From Protonemura montana (taxonomy: Eukaryota > Arthropoda > Insecta > Plecoptera > Nemouridae): 64,000 nt of DNA. Below the pieces are notes generated by a model. It saw nothing but the letters and a program-made list of their open reading frames with translations, did not search any database and was not told the DNA's origin. The stretch lies in the NCBI GenBank assembly GCA_947568835.1, contig OX387602.1, forward strand, positions 13,071,021 to 13,135,020. Reading direction: 5' to 3'. The position numbers were made by a program, and so were the translations under genes. Below, piece after piece: positions 35,160 through 63,400 of this stretch; positions within the stretch are counted from its first letter, which is position 1; each line of letters begins with the position of its first letter.

Positions 35160-38100
35160 TTATTCAGCCTCTCCCATTGACTTGAGGAACTCTTGGGCAT
35201 CTTGGATTTGTCCCAGCATCCGCTCTTTCTGTGCATTGGAGAGACTCGGCTTGAGGCCGGCTTTCAGCGAGGCAATTGTAGTCCGATAGCCAGTGACGTT
35301 GTGGAAGACTCGCACGTGGGTGTCACCCGCAGTCAACACAAACTTACCCAACGAGTCAAACTGAACACATGATATGGGTCCTGTGGCAGAACATAATAAA
35401 ATTAACATCTCTTCCTCATGACTTCACTTGCCGCTATGATTGCATTCCAGATGTAAAATTTCAAGGGCCTTAAAGAAAGATCACTGAATTGTTAAGGCTC
35501 CACAGACAAAAAGGTGGTTTTACAAACAACCAAAAAAAGGCAATTGAAATTTTTTTGAGCAAAATAGTTTGGCAAATTTTTTAGAATTTGCAATGCTATG
35601 TTTTGCTAGGTTTTTATCAGAAATCTTAATTCTTCTTAGAAAGACTGTACCAATTTCCCAGCTCGACTTTGTGCTACAAAAGACCTTTAACCAAATGAAC
35701 AATCATTTTGTAGCTAATTGCCCTAGTAAATACCCATGAAAGGACCAAACAAGAAAATCACACCTGTGTAGATGTCGTCAATAATCTTGTCACATTCGCC
35801 AGTGAGCACGGAGAAGATGGAAAGCGAGCTGCCCTTGGCGATGGCAATTACCTCGCCGTTTGGTGACATGGCTAGGTGTGATGGCTCCGTTGATGCCTTG
35901 GCGTTGTACTTGCCAGAGATCAGGGGATGCGGGTCCTCGCCTTGCTGGTACTCGACTATGGATTAGATCGAGAGATTGAAAGCAGGGATGTCTTAACCAT
36001 AGTTCAACGGACCACGAGCTCAAGATTTTACGGGGTACCACAAACCAACACACTATGTTTGAGTTGCAGTTCTAAATTAAAAAAATACTGCTTATTTTGT
36101 TCATTTTGTTGAAAATCTGACAAATGTTTCACGTTCGACAGCAAAAGTTCTCTGAGAATGAGACTTGCCTTTCGAAACTAGAAAGTGCTCACTATCTGTT
36201 ATCAGTTAGCTCAAAACTACATTTTAGAGTCATAATTTTAAAAAATCTTGCAAATGGAGGTGTGAACTTGACTGGGTGACTACTCAGCAGTATGAATTTA
36301 ATAAATGACAAGGATAGCCTCATGCTCACTGAAAAGCTAGAATTTGTATTGGAATTACAAAAAATACAAACAAATTTGTGAATATTATCCATTGGAACGA
36401 CTAAAACCAGAAATAAAGTTTGCTGTTACACCCTCTACATACTTTTAGTGTCGAAAACCTTCCATGTTCCGTCTTTGGACACGGTGGCCATCCGGGAGGA
36501 GTCCGAACTGAATCCCATGTCGTAGATGCCTGCTGAATGTCCAGACAGCTCGAATGCTTTGGTAACATGGTGAAAATCTCCCGCTTTGTTGAACCCCACC
36601 TCCCAAACACGAACATCGGGTGCGAAGCCTTAAAAAATGACAATTATCTATAACCTGCTGAAAACGTTGGTACATCTAGATGGAATTCTTGGAATTTCTT
36701 TTTTTTTTGGCATTAGCAACTATAGTGGATTAATCAGTAAAAATGTTGTACGTGCAAAACTATTTTATGTAGCAAATGTTATTCATTGTCAAAAAAAGAA
36801 AAAGTTTCTTGACACTGAGCAATAAAAAATAAATATTCAGTTCATGGATACAGGGAAGCAAATCATACATGGCCTACATACAAAATGAAATCGCTCATTC
36901 ATTCTGGCTTTAGTTTAAAAATTAGAACACTTATAAACTTAAAAAGATATTAAGATGAGCCTGAATGACGATTTAACAAAAGCTTTTTTGTCTGACGAAA
37001 GTAGTATGTAAGAGCTTGACAACATACCTGCTGCCACAACAAATCGTCCGCATGGAGTGATGCGGGCTCGATAAGTTGACATGAGAAGAGTGTCGAGCTT
37101 TGCCAGCTGCTGTCCCTTGAGACTCCACAAAGTCAAGTCAGTCTTCTCGGAGCACGTCATGATAAACTTGCCGTTGCACGCAATCCCAAGACCGACCAAC
37201 TCGTCGTCATGACGTTTTGAGAAAGTCATGGCCTTCGTTACTCCGCTGATCCAGCCATCAGGTTTTTTCGATACTTTATAAACCTCGGAGCAATTGTCAC
37301 TAGCCCGCTGAATAATAAACGCTTTCGAGTCGGGGCTCCATCTAACGAATTTCGCATGGTCAAACTGAATATTAAAGCGAAGCGATTTGTGGTCCTTGTG
37401 GTCCCAATCCTTGGTGCTCCAAAGAATAACGGCTCGATCTGAAAAATTCCCAACGATGTGTCCAAGAATTTATCGAAATACTGGGTAAAGGATTTGCATG
37501 TTCAAAATATTTTTTACGACAAAGTAAAATTTCTCTGAGAAACTTTAAGTCCGCTACAATTTTCTTTTGTGCAAGATTTTCTTTTAAGCTCAGAATCTGA
37601 CTTACAAAATACTTATATGGAAAAATGTTCAAACCATGCAATGAAAAGTTCCTCCATTATGAGGAATTTGAAAACCTAAATGTTACAAGTTACTACCTAT
37701 ACAGCTGGAGACAATTTGAACAACTGAGTGACATTTTTTTGATAGCAGGCACGAATTTTATCATGTTTCAATCAGAACAAAATCTATTAGATATTCATCA
37801 AATACTTCATTGGGTTATAAGGGAGGGAATGAGGGTAGTAAATACAGAAAAGTAGTCCGTTGCAAATGAAGCATTTATTGATTATTGCCTTTCTATTTGC
37901 TGAATCAAAATCATTTAACCAATAATGGTCTTCTTCACGGCTCAAAATTGTCCCTAAAAAGGTCATACGACTCAATTTCTTATGGCAGTTAAGTACACCC
38001 TTCCGCACAATATCGACACAGCATTATATATCACTGGTCATGAGCTCAGTACAATAGAAGCAAATAAATACAAATTGAATGGAGTAAGTTGATTCAAAAT

Positions 38101-41100
38101 CCAACAAATTGATGCCAGTTGTGATGTGCAGTCAATGCAATACTAACATTTCTCCCAACAAGCAGGAGATAATACTGGACAGAATATGAAAAACAGCCCT
38201 GCTCAAGTTTTGGATGATAGTGACATTCGAATTAAACAAAACCACTGTACTTTCCTACCTTCAATCATTCACAAATCAAAAGTCAATTAATATTATCGCT
38301 CAGAGGCAAAAGGAACGTTCTTTTCCCTGTAACTAATATCAAAGTAAGTGAACCACACTCGGTCCAAATTGACAACTCATAGCTTACAGTCCCCCTATAA
38401 AATCAATATGAACATATCACACAGATTAGCTGCAATCGCAGCATGCATAGGCTCTTATGACATATCAATTCACTTAACTGGGCTTGTTACAACTAGCATT
38501 TGCATTGAATTAAAAAAAAAGATCACATAAAAAATATTATTCAAGTAAGAAAATCACAATCTAGGAATGAACACATAAGCTTAACTTCACATAGCTACGT
38601 TGAAAAATAATAAATTAATAAACAAATAATCACAACTTTAAATGAGTTGTGTAAAAAGCAGTACATTAATAGGTAGAATCGAACACCTAACCCACATTCG
38701 GACATTGATACACCACTAGCCCATGTAAAAAACCTCACGACTTCCCATTTCACTATTTAGGCTATTGCCTAAAATCACTCTCACATCACATTCATAAAAA
38801 CACCTGCGCTCACATCAGAGTAAAAATTCTAGGCAATAGGAAGGCAAACATTACGTAAACAGGCATCGTTGTATTGATTATCAGATCAAACTTCCAACAT
38901 AGTTAGTTTAGTAAATATTCATAGTGGACTAGGCTTGTTTTAACCGATAAGTACGTTAACGAAGAACCTATCACTCAGTCTAGGCGAGGATCGACTGGAA
39001 ATCCTTCCGCACCCTCCACAACATGAGATCAATGCAAGCACGAGAGTCTTCAAAACTGTCGTGTCCTGATGAGTCTTGCTGGATTTCACGCTTCAAGAAG
39101 CATCCAACAAGCGACTTGAGCGAGCGCCGGTAGGGAAGCCCGTAGAAGTGTGGGAACGCAACGGAAGTGTCGATGACCGTACCGTGAATAATTCGCAACG
39201 CACGAAGGTCATTCTCCAAACCGTGTCCGATCAAGATCGAATCAGCATTGATGAAGCCTAACAAATCATTTTGAACCTCAAGCAGAGATTTTGTTGCTCC
39301 TCGTTTCTTCAGGTCCCTGGCGGTTATTCCAGAAAACCTCGTGTTGTAATCGATGATGAAGTTTTCTGGCCTGACAAGACAGTCATAGACGAGACGTCCG
39401 TCAGCCCCTACCACGGTGACCTTAGTCAACTCCAGTCCATACGTCGTGAAACACATTTCACAGTCGAGAGCGTAAATCCCATAGTTGTTGTCAGTAGGTG
39501 GCGTTTTGCGCGGACGGGTCCGAACGTAGCTATCGAATGGGCCATTCATGCCGATGTCGACACCGTTCCACACGTGCAGCTTGCCAGTCGTGCAGCCGCG
39601 GGCCATTGCGCTACCTTTGCAGCAGCTGTACTCCGTGCGCACAGAGGTGGGTGCGATCACCATTTTCTGCAGCTTGCCCCAGTGGTACATGCAACGCTCC
39701 TGTGTCAGGTACTCTCCGTCCAGAGTCACGAAAAAGCCACGGCTGCAACGCACGCACCGCTTCTCATCGCTTCCGCTCCACTGTCTCTCCTCTGCAAGGG
39801 GCCTACCTGCACCGACACCTGCTTTGTTCTTCAACGAATTAAACAAGACTTTCCCAACGTTACCGCTGAATTTATCGTGATAATCAGAACTACCTGAAAT
39901 ATCGTGCGAAGAACTAGATGAAGACGCCTCCTCACTCGAGGTTTGACCACTGTAGCACTGGTAATTTTCAAAGTACTCTGTTTTGACACGCCTATCCGCG
40001 TTCCACTCGACGCCGATCTCTGAGTAGTCCATCCCACGGTTGCCATCAGCCACTAGCCTAGTCACACACATGGTGGCACTCGGGTCGGAGACTTCTGGAC
40101 CGAACACGCCCAGGTCCGGCAGTTGCTTACTCATCGGCACAAACTCGCGTGCATTGACATCGAAGTGTGACGAACTCGCCACCGCACTCTTCGCATGGCC
40201 ATAAGCAGCAGGGCGTGGTGGGGTAGTGGCTGACTGGTTCTTGTAGATGACGGCACGGCCTGGATGAATTGAGCTCTCTACCGGGTAGCCGAGTCCGAGT
40301 AGCTGGTCGGGGCTGAGCACATAATGCCGCAGCAGCATAGACAGGTCGCTGTCAGCAAGATTGAGCCGGTCGTGCTGACGCAGGGCGGGCGCATCTGCGC
40401 GTCCGTCGCTGGCCGCAGTAGGGGTAGTCCCACGCCGTGTCTTAGCCTTGCCCTTCTTGGCGCGTTGTGCAGGTGAGTCGTCGTCGCGCCGCACGCGATT
40501 CCGCTTCTGGCGGCGGCTCAAACCCGTACCCTTCACGCCCCCAACCCCTGGCTCGGGACTGTTTTCCTTGTTGCCTTCGCTGCCGCTGCTGTTACCGCTG
40601 CACTGCTCGCTGTCGCCCGGCTCTCCACCAGGGTCCAGGTCATCTGTCGTGTCTTCGTCAGAAAGAGGAATGTATCATCACTCACCAGTCCACCACAAAG
40701 AAAGTTCCAGAGGTAGAGGTACGAAAACAAATAGTACACCAGGACATGCGTCTGACTTAATTTATAATTAGGACTTATTAAAAACACCTTCACGTATAAT
40801 TTATTCTGCCTCTTACCGTATTAGAGCTATTATTTACAACACTGTGACGCATGTAGTCCAAAGTTCATGGTTAAAGCATTTCTTCTTGGATTTAATGATT
40901 CTTTTCTCTTGTAACAAAAAAAAGAAACGAAAAAGTTTGAATCTATAATGCCACTGTTGCATCACTTAATGAGATTTTCACCCTCAGAACTTTGAACGTA
41001 GCAATTTCATGAAATTGCCAAAGCGTCACACGTATATATATTTTTCTATGTTAAGATTTTCTACATAGAAAACACTAGCGGTTGAACACTAGCTATGCTT

Positions 41101-42868
41101 TTTTGTAAGCTGGAAGATCCTACTACCCGTCAGAAACATAGAGCTAGTTTAGTCCCTAAGCTCTGAAAATATGTGAGCAAGGCCGCAATCATAGATAGGT
41201 TGTCGGTGAGCCAATAATTTGCAATATGCGCAAACCATCTGCAAATAGTTAGGCCAAGGTGATAATTTTAGTGCTGATAATTGGTTAGAAAACAGAACAA
41301 CCAATATTTAGCCGATGAACCTGCTTTTCACAACAATACGGTATTTACCGCAGTATACAAGGGCAATATCATTGCCGATATTTAATAGATATGTACAGCC
41401 ATAACCGTTCTAGCCCAAACCACCTCAACACAAAAGCACATTGATCAATAATAAGCAGGAAGTAGAAAGACAGGCGCAAAATCTATACACAAAAACTATA
41501 CTCAAACAATATCTAAATTACAATTGGATTTGTTAATGCTAAAAAATTGTGACAGCAAGTACCTACTGGAGATTATATATTACATCAACTTTACCCTTAT
41601 AATCCCTTAAGTGGTCCTACAGTCAGCATTACCTTCAGTCAATATCTTTGAATAGCGTGAAAAACTACGAAGCATGGGAGGTACGTTTCAGGATCTACTC
41701 TTTCCATTACAAAATGAACAAAGGTGATGAGCAATGATTTCATGTTTGAAATCAGCAAAGGTGTTTGAAATAAACACCTGTAACAATGCATTTATGCCCT
41801 CCTGTCTCTTGCTACTTTCAAAAGCAGGTAAACAAATATTAAGAAATTATATTTAAGCATACAAAGCACACCCTAAAACTTTATCTTGAAACTGCACTCA
41901 TAAATCCTCACCTTCTGCGCAGGTAGCTAAGAATTTCCCATTGCTGCTGAAGTCCATGTCGAGAACTCGACTACTGTGACCCTTGAGCGAAGTGAGCAGC
42001 CACCCATGTGTGAACCGTTGCTTATTGGAATCTTGGTTCCACTTCTCATTTTGCTTCTTCTTAACAGTCTTGGGAGGAGCTCCTGTGGAAGACTCGGGTG
42101 TCTTCTTTTTTCGTGGCGGCTCAACATTGTCTTCTGGAAATTAAAAATATATTGTCATTGCTTTACTGTATATTCCAATAGGGAAGTGCACTTGGCTATT
42201 TTATATTTATAATAAAAGAAGGTACAGAGCAAAAAATCTTATCAGATGCATTGCAGTCTTTCCCCTCTCTCCCTTCAACCCGCAGATTGTTGCCCCTTCC
42301 TACAGTCATTCATCGGCACCCACCCAAACAATGCACCTCGTGGTGTGCTACTTTCAAGGACACTATCACACATTACGCAAATGACCCTGCTTCATTTATT
42401 TACACCAGGTTTATCTACCAACAATACTTCTACACACACACACACAATGTTCCACACTTACACCTTAAAACGGCAGCCACTTCCAGAAACCCCCACATGT
42501 CAATGCAATAATGCAAGTCTGAAAAGACCATCTGAACCCACGCACGTGGTTAGGTTCGGCTGTTTTTGATTGCGGATTATTTTAACTACTTTCCCCACGA
42601 GTCCAAACTAGCTATAAAAGTGTTTTCTAGACATTGCAAATTTGTATAATTCATGTTGCCATCATGGCCTTTTTGGGGAAGCGGCCAAGTCATACGACCT
42701 AGATCATCACATGAGACATGAGGTTATGCTGTGTGGTTACTCACTTTTTACATCTTCATCTTCGTCGGCACTTTTCAACACGTTCCTGATATACAAGAAC
42801 AAGATACCTGCAACTCCAAACAAAATAGCGAACACTATCGGTGACGACCCGGAGAAAATTAGGCTCAT
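35160..42868 (-). CDS. TBL2: Transducin beta-like protein 2 (TBL2)
   Basis: TBL2 is an ER-membrane WD40 protein linked to PERK signalling. Six phase-consistent exons: 42868-42745, 42133-41912, 37438-37028, 36628-36443, 35955-35764 and 35380-35160, giving 451 aa (human 447). The N-terminus is a membrane anchor (SPIVFAILFGVAGILFLYI, about residues 9-27), then an acidic DEDEDV stretch and a basic KKK linker. WD-type units include LKGHSSRVLDMDFSSNGKFL, RAVILWSTKDW, KTDLTLWSLKGQQL, PDVRVWEVGF, YDMGFSSDSSRMATVSKDGT, HLAMSPNGEVIAIAKGS and ISCVQFDSLGKFVLTAGD. The C-terminal helix (SNAQKERMLGQIQDAQEFL) is also family-typical. The second intron is 4.5 kb and contains, on the same strand, the REXO1-type exon at 38980-40652. 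All TBL2 junctions up to exon 6 leave phase 1. Confidence 0.94.
38980..40652 (-). CDS. REXO1: REXO1/GOR-type RNA exonuclease, single large terminal exon inside a TBL2 intron
   Basis: This is a DEDDh 3'-5' exonuclease of the REXO1/GOR group. The last 170 residues carry the whole fold: YALDCEM (Asp and Glu), TRFSGITARDLKKRG, ILIGHGLENDLRAL (Asp), VDTSVAFPH, RRSLKSLVG and GHDSFEDSRACIDLM (His and Asp). Before it is the GOR Cys-rich block (CVRCSRGF, GEYLTQERCMYHWGKL, YSCCKGS, GCTTGKLHVW). The N-terminal part is Arg/Lys-rich, then Ser-rich. The frame is open from about 40652, where CCTCTTTCTGACGAAG|AC looks like an acceptor; an in-frame TGA lies just above. No usable in-frame ATG precedes the conserved part, so at least one upstream exon is needed. 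The exon needs a phase 1 donor, which TBL2 exons 1 and 2 provide. It is much richer in GC than the surrounding intron. Confidence 0.85.
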
Positions 42869-43076
42869 GTCCATTGTCCTCGCTTATGCTGTTCACTTTT
42901 CTGATATATCTCAACCTCTCACACTTTCCACCGCACCAACGAGACCTAACTACACCGCTCGACGGCTCTTCCGTTGAACCGATCACTCGTCACAACTAGC
43001 GATTCACGAAATGCATGCACTCGGAACACCAGTTTAACCGCCTGCCCAGCTGATTCGCTGTCGCTCGGTGGTCTCA

Positions 43077-43529
43077 CTTCATGCTGCCGACTACGGCTCT
43101 TCTATGAATTGGAATGGCGGGAACCGGGTCGCGGGCACAAGTCTCTAACGGGAACGTCTCTTGAATCGTTGGATGCATGCCGTTTATTCCGCTACGAGCG
43201 TGGTTCGCCGAGGTTACACTGGTTGCTTCCACGTCGTCGTTATTCGCATCACCGCCGTGGTTCACGTGGTCAGGCTGATGACTCTGGTATAAAAATAATT
43301 GATCGATGTGAAGCGAGTTGAAGTGGCTGCGCCGGTCGAACATTAGCGCGCTCGCGCTGTTTCGGAAGAAAGTCTCGCCGTAGTCGTCCTCGCTGAGAGA
43401 GCACTGTGGTTGTCTGAACGCGACCTTGCCTCTTCGGTACTCCGAAATGTACTGGCAGTCACTGGCTCTAGTCGCAGTCCATACTTCCAAGATTCTAGCC
43501 TTCTCTCTCGCACGCCTCTTCTGAGTCAA
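43077..43529 (-). CDS. Hypothetical first exon, unknown product
   Basis: A 151-codon open frame begins MTQKRRAREK and ends at a plausible donor (ATGAA|GTGAGA) about 0.2 kb above the TBL2 start, on the same strand. The product is rich in Asp, Asn, His and Arg, with no domain that I recognise. Its donor leaves phase 2, so it does not join the REXO1-type exon in frame at the acceptors I can see. It might be an upstream exon of a gene in this cluster, or a chance ORF in a GC-richer promoter region. Confidence 0.25.
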
Positions 43530-54545: not shown

Positions 54546-55512
54546 ATGGTACGACGTGGTAGATCCAGCCCTCCACCGGCACCGAGGTAAGAAAATATCT
54601 AAAGTATAAGATTTCATCATTTTTGTAACAAGGTCACGAGATGGTGTTCATCGTTAACGAGGCCCACATGAGTCCACCAGACTTTAGAAATAAATATATT
54701 TTCAACCAAGTTACCATTACGTAACAATTCACACTTTTTAATTTTTCTCTAGGCAGTAGGTGTCTGTTTATGAAATGAAACATTTGTCTTTGAACACAGT
54801 ATTTCCACAACCTCAAATTTCTTCTAACTATTCAGGCGGGCATCCGTTCCGGCCCGTGCACCGCAGCATAACCAGGCTCCACCACCCCCTATGATGCAGC
54901 AACAGCAACCGGGAGCGATGATGCAACAACCGCAGCAGCCGTCTATGTTCAAGCAGATGGCGGCTACAGCCGGAGGTGTTGCCATTGGTTCAGCAGTGGT
55001 ATGTTTTGAAAAATGTTAGGTTTCTAATGGTTTTGGGAATTTTTTGTAGTATATTTTTGAATTTGGCTCGAGGGATACATTTATTGGAATTTGCATCTAG
55101 CATCATTCAAGTAAAACTCTGAAACTATAGAAATAAAAAGACGTTATATAAGTTTGTATTTGGAAGCTTGCATAGAGCTAGAAATCAGGTTAATTAAATT
55201 TTGTTGTATGCTTACTATTTTGGCAGACAAACTGGTTATGTAACAAATATCTTTTGTGTTTATTAATAGGGCCACACCATTGGACATGCAATGACCGGCA
55301 TGATGGGTGGGGGCGGAAAGGATGAGGCACCGCAAGCGCAGCAGCAGAATTACCCTGAGGCAACTCAGCAGGGTGGACCACAAGAACCGACCGGGGCATG
55401 TGCTTGGGAGATCAAGCAGTTCCTGCAATGCGCCCAGGGCCAGAGCGACCTGACGCTGTGCGATGGCTTCAATGAGGCTCTACGACAGTGCAAGCAAAGC
55501 AATAGGATCTAA
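54546..55512 (+). CDS. CHCHD2: CHCHD2-type twin-CX9C mitochondrial protein, copy 1
   Basis: CHCHD2 (with CHCHD10) is an intermembrane-space protein that acts with MICOS and respiratory-chain regulation; import depends on the MIA40 disulfide relay. Three phase-consistent exons, 54546-54586, 54836-54998 and 55270-55512, give 148 aa (human 151). The N-terminus [13 protein letters not shown] is basic and Pro/Ser-rich like the human one. A Gln-rich stretch follows, then the conserved hydrophobic segment ([22 protein letters not shown]). The CHCH domain has [11 protein letters not shown] and [11 protein letters not shown], each with exactly nine residues between Cys. The protein ends NRI. Two AATAAA signals follow at 55573 and 55689. 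A paralogue lies 0.5 kb downstream. Confidence 0.95.
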
Positions 55513-56039: not shown

Positions 56040-56847
56040 ATGCCTAAAGGTGGGGGCGGAGGTAGGGCTTCTGGGGGCATCTCGAGGTCTCCTCAGGGGT
56101 CGGCAACTCGTACTCGACCCACAAACTACCCGGCTTCTCATCCTCATGATGTGCCGCCCGCAAAGCCTTCGGCGTTAACAAACCAGAAGATGCAACCAAT
56201 AGCAAGCACGGAGTGAGTGGAAATGAACCTCATTGAGTGCCTACACTGACTTTTCCTTCTCTATTGTGCGGTACACATACATTCCAGGCGTGCACCGGCG
56301 CGTGCTCCACAGCACAACCAACCCATGGTTCAACAACAACAGCAGCCGTCACTACTAAAACAGACAGCGGCAACTGCAGCAGGAGTTGCTGTTGGGTCTG
56401 CCGTGGTACGCATCCAATTGAGATTCCTGGAGCGAATGGCAATGGGAATGATTTTGAGATTATTGGAGTATTATAGAATAGCCTTGGGCCAGGACATGCT
56501 ATTTATCCTAGGCTAGTAGCGGGAATTTTATGCCATGTATTAGTTGCTGGTTAGCATTCTCAATGTTTTGTTTCCAGGGACACACAGTTGGCCATGGAAT
56601 AGTAAGTGCAATGGGTGGCGGCAGGGAAGACACGGCGCAGTACCCTGAAGGACCGCAAGAGCCAACAGGCCCCTGCGCCTGGGAGATCAAGCAGTTCCTT
56701 CAATGCGCTCAAAATCAAAGCGACCTGTCTGTATGTGACGGATTCAATGAGGCATTACGTCAGTGCAAAATAAACAACAGGATTTATTTGTTTTTGTCAT
56801 TGCTAGCAGTTTTAAAATGCTCTGTCAATCGTTATCATATGATGTGA
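56040..56847 (+). CDS. CHCHD2: CHCHD2-type twin-CX9C protein, tandem copy 2 with extended ends
   Basis: Three phase-consistent exons, 56040-56212, 56288-56405 and 56578-56847, give 186 aa. Intron positions in the shared part match copy 1, so this is a tandem duplicate. The core is conserved: [12 protein letters not shown], Gln-rich stretch, [10 protein letters not shown]-like hydrophobic segment, [18 protein letters not shown] and [11 protein letters not shown]. The N-terminal exon is different from copy 1: about 57 residues, Gly/Ser/Pro-rich, starting [13 protein letters not shown]. After NRI, where copy 1 stops, this frame runs on for 20 residues ([13 protein letters not shown] and more), a hydrophobic tail. 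Loss of the original stop is the simplest explanation. An ATTAAA lies 20 bases past the stop. Copy 2 may be a specialised or weakly constrained paralogue. Confidence 0.88.
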
Positions 56848-57414: not shown

Positions 57415-60400
57415 TGGAGTCTAGCATTGAGTCGGATGACTTACCAGCAAAAATGCAGACATTGATAGAAAAGATAGATCAGCTTGAGGCAGAGAAGCAA
57501 GAATTTGGACATCAGCGGGCTAAAATGAAAGAGCTTTATCTTCAAAAAGAAGGTAACATTAAATATCATACGAAGGTCTCATTGGATCTGTAATGTTTTT
57601 TAACACATAATGGCCTGTTTATGACCTGTTTGGTGTGTACGTCGAGTTTCGTTCGTTACTCATTCACTGAAAATGTTCTGAATGCTTGCATCTACTTTGG
57701 AAATATAGGTCTCAGTAAAAATCGAGGACCATCCGTCCCAACCAATATAGAATGACATACAACAACTTTTCCTTGTTGCCATTACTTTCCAGATGGTTTT
57801 CTGAGCTAAAAAATATCCACAAATACAAAAACCTACATCAAAAACATAACTTATCCCCACCTGTGAATACAAAAACATTCTAGCTTTGATCCTGACATAT
57901 AACATAGGTAAAGCCACGTTCTGAATGTCAGTGAAATGCACTAGCAGTTGGTGTACCTACCTACCTACTACCCTAGGCTGTTGAATAATGTGGAAACAGC
58001 AGATTGATCTTGGAATGAACGTGACTTTAAATCTATAAAAACTTCATATTGTTTGACTAAAGTTGAGTTCACTGCTAGAGTTGTCGTTCGTCCAAACAAA
58101 CACTGAGGACTAGTCTAAAAAGCGTATTCAGATTGCTTTTTATGGAGGTTTCTAAAGGTATAGCTACATTTACTGCCAGTCTTATCAAGTAAAATGTTGC
58201 CACATTGCACTAGTAGACACAAAAGCTCAGCTTATATGTTTACCTGGATGTTTTTGTTTGTTCTATTGATGAATCAGGTCATTGGCAATTATAATTTTAT
58301 AGTCGTTTTGATTGCTAGAATTGTTATTAGCAAATATAAGTTTGTTGTTTCTGTGGATTGATAATAATGCCACCAATCCACTTGGTTCTTGGTGTAGGTA
58401 TTATGCTTAAAATACAAACAAAACGAGTAATCTTGGTTAGTAATAAATCTGTGTAAATATTTCAGAGGAGCACAAAATTGGAATGGCTGAGCAGAATCGC
58501 TTGAAAGAAGAGATTAAATCGTTGACAGTAGAGTTGGAAGAAGCGAAGAGTCAAATGCTCGTGGAAGGATTTCGAATGGAGAGTGATCTTGAAGTTGAGA
58601 AAAGAAAGTGCAAAGAGGAAATTGCCACACTTCAACAGCTCATGCACGGTACACCATAATTTACATAAATATATTTCTATAAGTCTTAATTCTGTTCATA
58701 CTTGATACTAGAAAAAGGTTGCTTACAATTTTTATTTTTATTTAATGTCTTTATTAGCTTGGTTCAGCTATTTACATTGTCAATATATAAGTCTCATACT
58801 CTATAATTATCATTACACATTTTAATAAATTTTGCTCTAAATTCTTTAACATTTTCAGCCCTTTTTATTAGTATTGGTAGTTGGTTATACTCTCGTATTC
58901 CATTATAGAAAATTGATCTTGCTGATTTTGTGGTTTTGATGCTGCTTAGATATAGAGAGTTGGTAGTTACATTTCTAGTTTTGTGGGTATGGACATCTGT
59001 TATTTTTACTAGGTTATCTTTAAGGTAATCTGGGAGGAGGCTCTTTTCTATTTTGAATATAAAGATCATAGCATTCATCTTCAGCCATTCTTTCATGTTA
59101 AGCCACCCTATTGTTTGTAGCATATATTCTATTGATACATATCTGTCACATCTTAGAATGCATCGCATGCCTTTATTTTGTAGGATCTGTAACGCCTTTA
59201 CATCCTGAACTAATGTTTGGTACAAAATTGTTGAACAGTATGTAAAATGTGGTAGTACAATTGTTTGGTAGATAATTAATCTGGTGTAACATGACAGGTA
59301 GCCTCCTATTCTTTGTAGGTATCCAATTTTCTTTCTTATTTTACTTTTAACATAGTCTACGTGTTCCTTAAAATCTAGCTTGTCATTTATAATTACTCCT
59401 AGGTATTTAAAGTTACTTACTAGTTCTATTTTTTCATCTTGTATTTCCAGGCAATTTTGATCATATTCAGCTCTAGTAGCTCTAATACATATAGCTTTTG
59501 TTTTGGCAACATTAAGTTTAAGCCTATTAATACCTAACCAGTGATTTACATAGCGCAACTCTTTGTTTATGGCTTCCATTATGTATTTGGTATCAGTACC
59601 TGATATAAACATCACTGTGTCATCGGCATACAGGTTCAAGGAACATTTTTCCACACATATATCAATATCATTAATGTACACAATAAAAAGGAAAGCTCCG
59701 AGTACACTTCCCTGTGGAAGCCCAATGTCGACATGTAGGGGCTCTGATATTTTGCTGTCGTATTTAGTTCGTTGCTTCCTCTCGCTTAAGTAATCCCTGA
59801 ACCACTCTAGCACAACCCCTCCAATATTGTATAGGTGTTCTAATTTTTCCAGAAGTCTTTCTCGGTCTACCGTTTCGAAAGCCCGTTTGAAGTCCAGGAA
59901 TACTGCTACGGTAGTTAAACCTTCATCCTTCTTCCGTGTCCAATCGTTTATTAGCCATTGTACTGCTGTTTCACAACTATGTTTCTTTCGGAAACCTGAT
60001 TGGTTTTTCAATATCAGATTATTAACTGAGAAATACTCTTCTACTTGTTCATGGACACAAAGTTCAAGGACTTTCTCTAGGACTGGCAGCATATTAATGG
60101 GCCTGAATTCACTTGCTAGTTTTGTTTTTTTAACTTTTGCCACTGGTATAATGAGGGTTTCTTTCCAGCATTTTGGAAATAGCCCTTCTTCTAGGGATAT
60201 GTTTATCATATTTAGCATATGAGTTTTGATACTTGGGTAGGCAGCCCTTAGAATCTTCACTGATATGCCATCTAAGGTCCCACCTCCTTTATTTTTTAGA
60301 CCAAATATTATTTCATCTAGTTTCTTCATAGTTATATTTTGGAAAATGTTCATTTGGTAAGGCAATTCCCTATTTTCGTCATTACCTTCGAGTCTTATTG

Positions 60401-63400
60401 ATTCCCTCACCATCTTATTTTCCACGTCTTTGTGGTCGACAATATTTATGCTAGTATTGATCTCTTTTATACTATCTATAAAGTATTGGTTAAATTTATT
60501 TGCGATTTCACCTCTGTCATACTTAGCTACTCCATCTATGAAAGTAATACTTTCAGGGTGTTCTTCAGTTGCTTCTGTCTGCACTAATGTTTTCAAAGTT
60601 TTCCACATTCCTGGGCTATCCCGTTTTTTTTCATCAATCTTTTTGTTATAGTAGTCATATTTGGCTTTTCTAGATATTGCAACAATATGATTTCTTTTTT
60701 TCTTAAACATAGTCCATAGATATTGAGATTGTGTAATTCCGATTATCTCAAATAGTTCATCTCTTTCTTTCATCTGCTCTTTAATATTGCTAATAATTCA
60801 AAATTGCTAATTTGTTGTAAATATGACTCCAGACTAGAGGAGTGAACTAGATTTAGCTAGCAAAACTAGTTTTTCTAATTAACCTGTATACTTCAGAAAC
60901 GGTTGAAGAATCAAGTAGCACACGTAACAAACACGACATCGAGGTCCTTCGCTTGCGGCGTGTAAACGAACGTTTTGAGCACGAACTACACGAGCTCCGA
61001 GCGCAGCTGAAAGGAGAGTCGGACAGTCTCGCGCCCGGTGTTATGCTATCGGCGGTCACAAAGACACTCGCGCGGAAGGTGGCCAGTCAGTTGACTGGAG
61101 ATTCATCAACGCCTTCCCAAGACAGTAGTCTCGACGATAGTATGCGGAAGGTAAACAAATATGTACGTAACACACCGCTTTCATATTCTTTACTTGCACG
61201 CAATGTAATGATATTTATATTAACTAGGTATTTTTTCTCTTACTATTGGTTGTTCCTATGGTTGTACTATTTTGAAACTAGATTATTTTAAGAAAAGACA
61301 TTTAAAAAGTTGGTTTAAAAGTTGATTCTTATTTTTCTTGCCTGTTGCTTGATCTGCTTCATAGATTATTATAGTTGGTTTTGGTACAGTCATTTTATGT
61401 ATTTTATGTAATTTTATCGGCACGCAGTAGTTTTATCACGTCACAATACTCCTAGGGCTGGAACCACAAAGCAAAGTTTTCAATTTGGGGGAAAAGTTGT
61501 TTCACCATGAAAACAACCTCTAAAATCGGGAAACACCGTCTGTGATTGACTGATCATCATCTTTTAGCTCCGGGGTTTCACTTGAGCTCTGATTTGTGGA
61601 TCCGACCCTTAGAAGCCTTACTCTATCCCATTAAACTTAACCAATCAAGTAGAGTATTTAATTTTTTTATATTTGATGTTTATAATATAGTTTTTTAAAC
61701 TTATCTGTAAATAAATGCAACACCAATTTATTAAATTATATTTTTACATTTTTTCTTCAAGTTTGGTAGCATGTGACTTGGATCATAAATCCTCATTTTA
61801 TGTTAGTTAAGCAAATAACCTTGTTCATTTAATTTCAGGCAAAGGAAGACGCGGAGGTATTAAGGTCGTTAGTCATTCCGCTAGAAGAAGAAATCCAAGC
61901 GCTGAAAGAGAAACTTCGTGATATGGACCAGGAACTGCAGAAGTACAAAGATGGTAGCCACGATGCTGCTAGCATCAAGGAACTTGTATGTGTGAATGAA
62001 CAAGGAGGCAAGGATTCAAATCTTGCGGGCAGTCACCAGCTTGTCTCTGCTGCTAGTCTTGATGCTCCGAGCCGATCAACAACAAGTACGTGCACCCCTA
62101 TCTCTGGCTTATGACGATGCAGATGTATCATGCCTAAAAACTACAGATCCATAAGATTGTGCATTCCAGGATTATTCACATTTGATAAGTGTTTTTTCAG
62201 AATTTTTGGCAGCTTTTATGCCTTATTCAACCTCTTTATCGCTCTTTGGCGCATGTCCTTCAACACCCTTAAGAACGTTCGCAAAGCCCTAGTGTAATTA
62301 TGAAAAGATCTAAAAAAATTAAAAACACATACTGATTAGCTGTTGCCAAGCAATTAATTATATAACAAACCGCTGAATAACTGGAACCCAAAATTTTGTG
62401 GACTGAAATTTATATTCTCTGAGTGAATGGGCATCATTGAAAAAAATGATAATTTATTATTTAAATATACAGTGCATTACCAGTAAATTGACAAATGAAC
62501 TGAACTTTTTCTTTTGTGTTGTGCAGAGGCGAGTGCTATGAGCGCATCTGCCAACTCACTTTCCAGCCTAGCTGAGGGCAAGCCGAGCCCGGAGCCGTTC
62601 TCGCCGGCCGGATCCCCGGTGAGCCCAGCCGGGCGCACTTGCGACATGTGCTCCAACTACGAGGCCCAGCTTGTGCGAGCCCAGCAACGAGCACGTGAGC
62701 TCGAGAAACAGGTGGGTGATCAGAGCAATCAAGCGATGATTCTTTTGATGAAAATTGGATTAAGTAGATGTGAAATAGATTAAAGTCTAATGCTTCCTTT
62801 CAGGCAGGTTTTTCAGAAAGATACGTTTGCTGCTTCGTAATCTTAAATTAGAGCTTAAACCAAGTTCCAGTCCACTGTAAACAAAGAATGTTTTATGCCA
62901 AAATGACCAAGTGCTGTGTTAGGCCTGCTGCTGCGTGCCATTAATCATTATAAGCGTTTCTTTTAGCATTTTAGCATTTTCTTGTGAATCAAATACTTAA
63001 GTCGTAAAAAATGTTGCATACCACATACTGGCTCTGTTCATGCCACACTTTTTGTCTTTTCTTCCTGAATGTTTTAAATTATATTTTGGTATTCAAGCGA
63101 TCAGATTTAGGGACAAAATGGAATATCAGTACAAAAGAGGCAGAATTTTGTAGGCCCAGGTAAAGCATTGATTTGGCACAAAATTTAGGAAAATGGCAAA
63201 ACCAATGTCTCTGTTTCAGGTGGCATCTATCGAACGAACTGCGGAGCGCTATCGCGAGGACCTGGCCAAGGAGTCTGAGTTCAGGAAGGAGATGGAGGAC
63301 AAGTGGGGCGAGAAGAAGGAAGAGCACAAGACGCAGGTGGCCGAGCTGAAACTCAAGCTAGAGCACACAGAGGAGGCACTTCAAGAGCTGCGTCAAACAT

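Follow-up and report, generated by a model that had tools for sequence, protein, structure and literature searches.

The window analysed here is a stretch of 64,000 nucleotides from the genome of Protonemura montana (contig OX387602.1, positions 13,071,021 to 13,135,020), numbered from its first letter. On its minus strand lies a gene which we take to be TBL2. Wholly within intron 2 of this gene and on the same strand, the window holds a 564-codon open reading frame (ORF, 40674-38980) which, judged by its sequence, is an intact REXO1/Rex3-type exonuclease (Table 1). The TBL2 model has six exons and encodes 453 amino acids in a complete coding sequence without internal stops, and all five introns are in phase 1. 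Its first ATG is at 42874, while 42868, where the region given in a preliminary description of the locus ends, is a second in-frame ATG. Exon 2 contains a WD40 match above the Pfam cut-off and exon 3 propeller matches below it. Exon 1 encodes a hydrophobic segment (best 19-residue window from residue 11, mean 2.38). In human TBL2, according to excerpts of PMC4231078, segment 9-31 serves as the anchor, deletion of residues 1-31 gives a diffuse protein, and the remainder (32-447) is on the cytosolic side; the hydrophobic stretch encoded by exon 1 here lies at the matching place. The TBL2-type gene is intact and complete around the exonuclease ORF, and the model confirms that exons 1 and 2 lie upstream of the ORF and both end in phase 1.

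Table 1. Features of the TBL2 locus and the exonuclease ORF, in window coordinates
Feature	Position	Strand	Basis or remark
TBL2 exon 1	42874-42745	-	start codon and hydrophobic segment, phase 1 donor
TBL2 exon 2	42133-41912	-	phase 1 donor
TBL2 intron 2	41911-37439	-	contains the entire exonuclease ORF
TBL2 exon 3	37438-37028	-	gene model
TBL2 exon 4	36628-36443	-	gene model
TBL2 exon 5	35955-35764	-	gene model
TBL2 exon 6	35380-35160	-	includes the stop
Putative REXO1/Rex3-type exonuclease terminal coding exon without KIX	40652 (or 40643)-38980	-	ORF, Pfam, coding-frame test, single DNA copy
Upstream in-frame TGA (40677-40675) with the exon starts of both candidate acceptors (40652 and 40643)	40677-40643	-	both acceptors phase 1
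Coding-looking stretch ahead of the first in-frame Met (residues 12-112)	40641-40339	-	frame test; contains the basic cluster
First in-frame ATG (Met113)	40338-40336	-	T at -3
Only ATG exon candidate with a phase 1 donor in intron 2	41675-41633	-	14 codons with a donor score of 3.29, possibly fortuitous
Coding-looking stretch upstream of TBL2, ATG at 43343 to donor-like site at 43077	43343-43078	-	phase 2; frame and donor scan

The exonuclease ORF matched the Pfam family RNase_T above cut-off (residues 404-550, E-value 7.2e-08). All ten sequence matches in the PDB were DEDD-type nucleases, with SDN1 at the top (E-value 7.2e-22), followed by ISG20 (4e-13), ISG20-like 2, PAN2 and a PolC-type chain. 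The ORF retains the motifs DCEM, HGLENDL and GHDSFED in intact form, and the Exo set as a whole reads DCEMCF, HGLENDL and EIQ...GHDSFED. Excerpts of PMC12129344 give as marks of Rex3/REXO1 a C-terminal DEDDh domain with DCEM, DL, IQ before Exo III and Y/F in Exo I. The ORF has DCEM in Exo I, DL in Exo II and IQ ahead of Exo III, and the Phe after DCEMC was by assumption taken as the Y/F mark of Exo I. Enzymatic activity and a role in RNA turnover may be presumed. A CHORD-like Cys/His pattern at residues 307-368 aligned with both paralogues in the genome. Structure prediction of the 564 residues as a single sequence gave a pLDDT of 33 and was not used. Residues 52-81 form a basic cluster with 14 Lys or Arg in 30 positions versus a protein mean of 3.9. 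By our own reading of its composition, the cluster looks like a nuclear localisation signal and would fit a soluble nuclear protein. A DNA search of the genome with the ORF returned one match, the ORF itself, within a 33-Mb contig. Pattern searches gave 3 matches in the viral and 27 in the prokaryote collection, none of which was confirmed as a relative. As for a poly(A) signal, one AATAAA lies between the stop codon and the end of intron 2 (38979-37439), at 37879; nearer to the stop we found only variant hexamers at 38912 and 38875.

The relation of the ORF to the REXO1 family was examined through the EloA-BP1 profile. In the ORF the tail of the profile alone was matched (profile positions 119-162 of 165, residues 102-145, E-value 0.0013, below cut-off). 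The genome contains three places with EloA-BP1 matches, and the whole profile (1-162) was matched only by a multi-exon REXO1 on contig C16 at 27.802 Mb; none of the three places held a further piece of EloA-BP1 near the ORF. The C-terminal part of this canonical REXO1 was modelled as six exons and five introns with a clean read-through, three of the five introns being in phase 1 as calculated from exon lengths. Four canonical introns of the shared part are missing from the ORF. The two sequences are 36% identical over 390 aligned codons with saturated synonymous sites and an unreliable alignment at the N-terminus. Their likeness consists of the Cys/His-rich part and the DEDDh domain with its Exo motifs. 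On the other hand, the full EloA-BP1/KIX match and the five introns of the modelled part belong to the canonical gene, and the ORF has neither. Thus we regard the exonuclease as a paralogue without the N-terminal KIX and not as the canonical REXO1. According to excerpts of PMC12129344, human GOR was identified by its similarity in KIX and CHORD; the label GOR, used before, is therefore not applied to the gene in the window.

A third copy (locus L002, contig C1 at 1.022 Mb) is intronless and close to the canonical gene, with 68% identity over 303 codons. Pairwise dN/dS between the two was 0.14 (bootstrap 0.07-0.21), a value that mixes both branches. The 303-codon ORF occupies positions 1321-2232 of the locus (C1:1021761-1022672), and the EloA-BP1 part upstream of it carries a stop and, by eye, a frame change. 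This locus is possibly a second route to the KIX-less form.

KIX-less Rex3 proteins with an N-terminus of low structure are represented by Drosophila Prage and are called widespread in metazoans in excerpts of PMC12129344. Prage (CG42666) resembles the protein predicted here in the absence of an N-terminal KIX, in the C-terminal DEDDh domain and, as far as composition suggests, in an unstructured-looking N-terminus. They differ in that the exonuclease exon here sits in an intron of TBL2. Retrogenes that lie in host introns and recruit host exons, as described in parts of the literature, are comparable to the ORF in that their coding part is free of introns and lies within the host intron in the orientation of the host gene. 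For the ORF the missing introns are the sole mark of retroposition that was considered, and synonymous sites are saturated.

Next we consider where coding begins. As previously described, the frame opens at acceptor-like sites with an in-frame TGA just upstream, and both sites require a phase 1 donor. The exon starts 40652 and 40643 are the only ones derived from an AG between 40674 and 40623. The stretch 40641-40339 was excluded from the training set of the frame test and scored 32.9 bits in the coding frame versus -21.0 and -36.7 bits in the other two. None of 2000 dinucleotide shuffles reached the coding-frame score. Because 175 of the 2000 stayed open, openness by itself is unremarkable. 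Three intron stretches had negative scores in every frame in the same test. The GC change point within 41400-40345 was at 40639 (40632-40669 within 2 nats), i.e. at the proposed acceptors. By change point and frame test the coding onset lies at 40652/40643. Since the 101 codons before Met113 carry coding signal and Met113 is the first in-frame ATG, translation probably starts on an upstream exon, which is the likely supplier of the start codon. Translation might also begin at a non-AUG codon within 40674-40641. The claim that the conserved domains have no ATG ahead of them did not stand: Met113, Met181, Met202 and Met215 all come before the CHORD-like part, which begins at residue 307, and before the exonuclease (404-550), and Met113 falls within the match to the EloA-BP1 tail. 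The original observation was largely right, and the need for an upstream exon has gained support.

Probably, though with considerable reservation, this exon belongs to a Prage-type gene that is interleaved with TBL2 and has 5' exons of its own, rather than to TBL2. The ORF would then be the long last coding exon of a KIX-less REXO1/Rex3-type 3'-5' exoribonuclease gene with its own transcription unit. The start codon would be located on a separate exon, or several, further upstream; these are probably remote, perhaps used alternatively, and would be joined in phase 1 to 40652 or 40643. The first exons of TBL2 may thus lie within an intron of the exonuclease gene. We infer both the use of these splice sites and the separate start exons. 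This arrangement is supported by RNase_T with its intact motifs, by the tail-only match to EloA-BP1, by the lack of the four shared REXO1 introns, by the onset of coding at the acceptors, by the complete TBL2 around the ORF and by the basic cluster. Drosophila prage has six isoforms that differ in their 5' ends and have the 3' region in common (excerpts of PMC4889664), while excerpts of PMC7230524 describe a gene of 79.2 kb with 96.3% intron, 11 transcripts and Adar plus three other genes in its introns. Because of these differing 5' ends and the four genes in its introns, the simpler interpretation is that the 5' exons are separate and remote. The shared 3' coding part, the varied 5' ends and the genes inside introns are features of Drosophila prage to which the proposed gene is likened; remote 5' exons with another gene in between are thus known for this kind of gene.

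Several points weigh against such an interleaved gene. Its assignment to the Prage type is one of architecture. With the position of the pyrimidine tract fixed, both acceptors score weakly. With generic matrices, used for acceptors and donors alike and not trained on this genome, 40652 scored 0.65 and 40643 -1.77, values that are attained by 13% and 33%, respectively, of the 7368 AGs in the window; the 11 acceptors of the modelled TBL2 and REXO1 scored 0.21 to 8.53. When the pyrimidine tract was allowed further upstream, 40643 reached 5.57 (1.7%) and 40652 1.28 (21%). Furthermore, an own upstream exon was not located in scans of 43400-40700 (donor score at least 3), of 41911-40680 (donor score at least 0) and of 40-58 kb for coding segments. 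The last scan was too noisy to be used alone, as a reversed control yielded 31 segments, the best with 99.5 bits. Six candidates running from an ATG to a donor of at least 0 were obtained in intron 2, three in phase 0, two in phase 2 and one in phase 1, and the latter is short and weak (Table 1). The coding-looking stretch 43343-43078 was ruled out as the directly joined first exon by its phase 2 at 43077. A phase 1 donor at 43252 within it is weaker (score 0.77) and sits in continuing coding signal. Finally, GC and CpG profiles as a promoter mark were suggestive, but in a control no consistent peak was seen over the 400 bases that precede the start codons of 15 Ras-family loci (median GC 0.34, median observed/expected CpG 0.92). 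The control loci were the 18 of 30 with a match from profile position 1 or 2, less three that had no in-frame ATG. A promoter in intron 2 is therefore compatible with the composition. Short remote 5' exons are not to be found from one genome without transcripts, and real donors in the modelled genes scored as low as 0.09. Given this and the limited scans, the missing separate exon is only weak evidence for TBL2. The separate upstream exon, previously named as the plain alternative, is now the favoured explanation, while the exon itself did not appear in the scans.

The foremost competitor, which we consider rather unlikely, is that exon 1 of TBL2, or less likely exons 1 and 2, are spliced to 40652 or 40643, giving an isoform with an endoplasmic reticulum (ER) anchor and a cytosol-facing exoribonuclease. 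All four joins open in frame, with 600, 597, 674 and 671 amino acids. The donors of exons 1 and 2 scored 4.33 and 7.26 and are among only five of 456 GTs within 48000-40700 that reach at least 4.33. In addition, only one of the six candidates in intron 2 is in phase 1, and further upstream the nearest stretch with a coding appearance (43343-43078) allows no direct join. Yet the phase match is cheap. Eight of ten modelled introns (five of five in TBL2, three of five in REXO1) are in phase 1, so that the match is worth little. Because all five TBL2 introns share this phase, the matches of exons 1 and 2 are not independent and count once. The nuclear-signal-like basic cluster at residues 52-81 suits a membrane anchor poorly, the version with exon 2 would carry a broken WD40 domain, and a chimeric TBL2-nuclease retrocopy was not found in the genome search. 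The Drosophila prage precedent, with its differing 5' ends and genes in introns, also argues against a start from TBL2, and a literature search returned no published link between TBL2 and REXO1 or an exonuclease among the matches listed. What stands of the proposal that the ORF is an alternative terminal exon of TBL2 is the dependence on an upstream exon and the open frames; positive evidence beyond the cheap phase match was not obtained. 

Slightly more doubtful still is the specific isoform that couples the exon 1 anchor with a KIX-less REXO1-type exoribonuclease and would thereby place this enzyme on the ER surface facing the cytosol. The topology of human TBL2 in the excerpts of PMC4231078 together with the matching segment of exon 1 implies that such a fusion would be a cytosol-facing, ER-tethered exonuclease, although we infer each step past the open frame. 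If the start did come from TBL2, a scaffold of the PERK pathway and an ER-tethered exonuclease would be alternative products of one promoter, and ER stress would be linked to RNA decay in a simple way that can be tested. The tethered enzyme could then degrade or trim membrane-bound mRNAs beside the PERK/TBL2 stress pathway.

It is improbable that an unspliced transcript from a promoter in intron 2 is translated from Met113 or Met202 into a compact CHORD and DEDDh protein. Met202 lies in a strong-looking start context (GCCACCATG), a promoter in intron 2 is compatible with the composition data, and a compact form with CHORD and DEDDh alone exists in C. elegans (Q9N5W0, excerpts of PMC12129344). 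The first Met of L002 is, by eye, at the place matching Met113, in a stretch that the computed alignment does not cover. On the other hand, frame statistics suggest that the 101 codons ahead of Met113 are coding, Met113 has a T at -3, and 24 ATGs in any frame precede it from 41911 onwards. An assembly error or a pseudogene fragment placed in the intron could explain the head of the ORF without a start codon, but is highly improbable in view of 564 open codons with all catalytic motifs, a single DNA match inside a 33-Mb contig and a TBL2 that reads on across both flanks.

If the interleaved gene is real, a Prage-type nuclease exon and TBL2 alternate on one strand, and automated annotation could misfuse or truncate them.

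The stretch 43343-43078 itself comprises 89 codons about 200 bases upstream of TBL2, and its frame ends in a TGA inside the donor-like GTGAGA. The surrounding 151-codon ORF had no match in Pfam, NCBIfam, the PDB or elsewhere in the genome. The stretch is either the first exon of an uncharacterised gene or a small ORF that precedes TBL2. Within intron 2 of TBL2 an acceptor-like site at 41238 on the minus strand (score 3.34) is directly followed by an ATG that opens a short frame.

Elsewhere in the window two similar coding stretches on the plus strand (55270-55500 and 56575-56754) are presumably tandem CHCHD2-type genes. A 667-codon ORF with a YADD motif on the minus strand (58794-60797) is, as we assume from this motif, a LINE reverse transcriptase. 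In the remainder of the genome, an assembly of 258 Mb in 34 contigs, a COX1 match at C4:5760925-5762262 had 455.5 bits, a score identical to that of the mitochondrial contig C34, which reads with the invertebrate code. A further partial match lies at a distance of 15.9 kb, close to the length of one mitochondrial genome (15,885 bases). The locus is either mitochondrial DNA inserted into the nuclear genome or an artefact of assembly.

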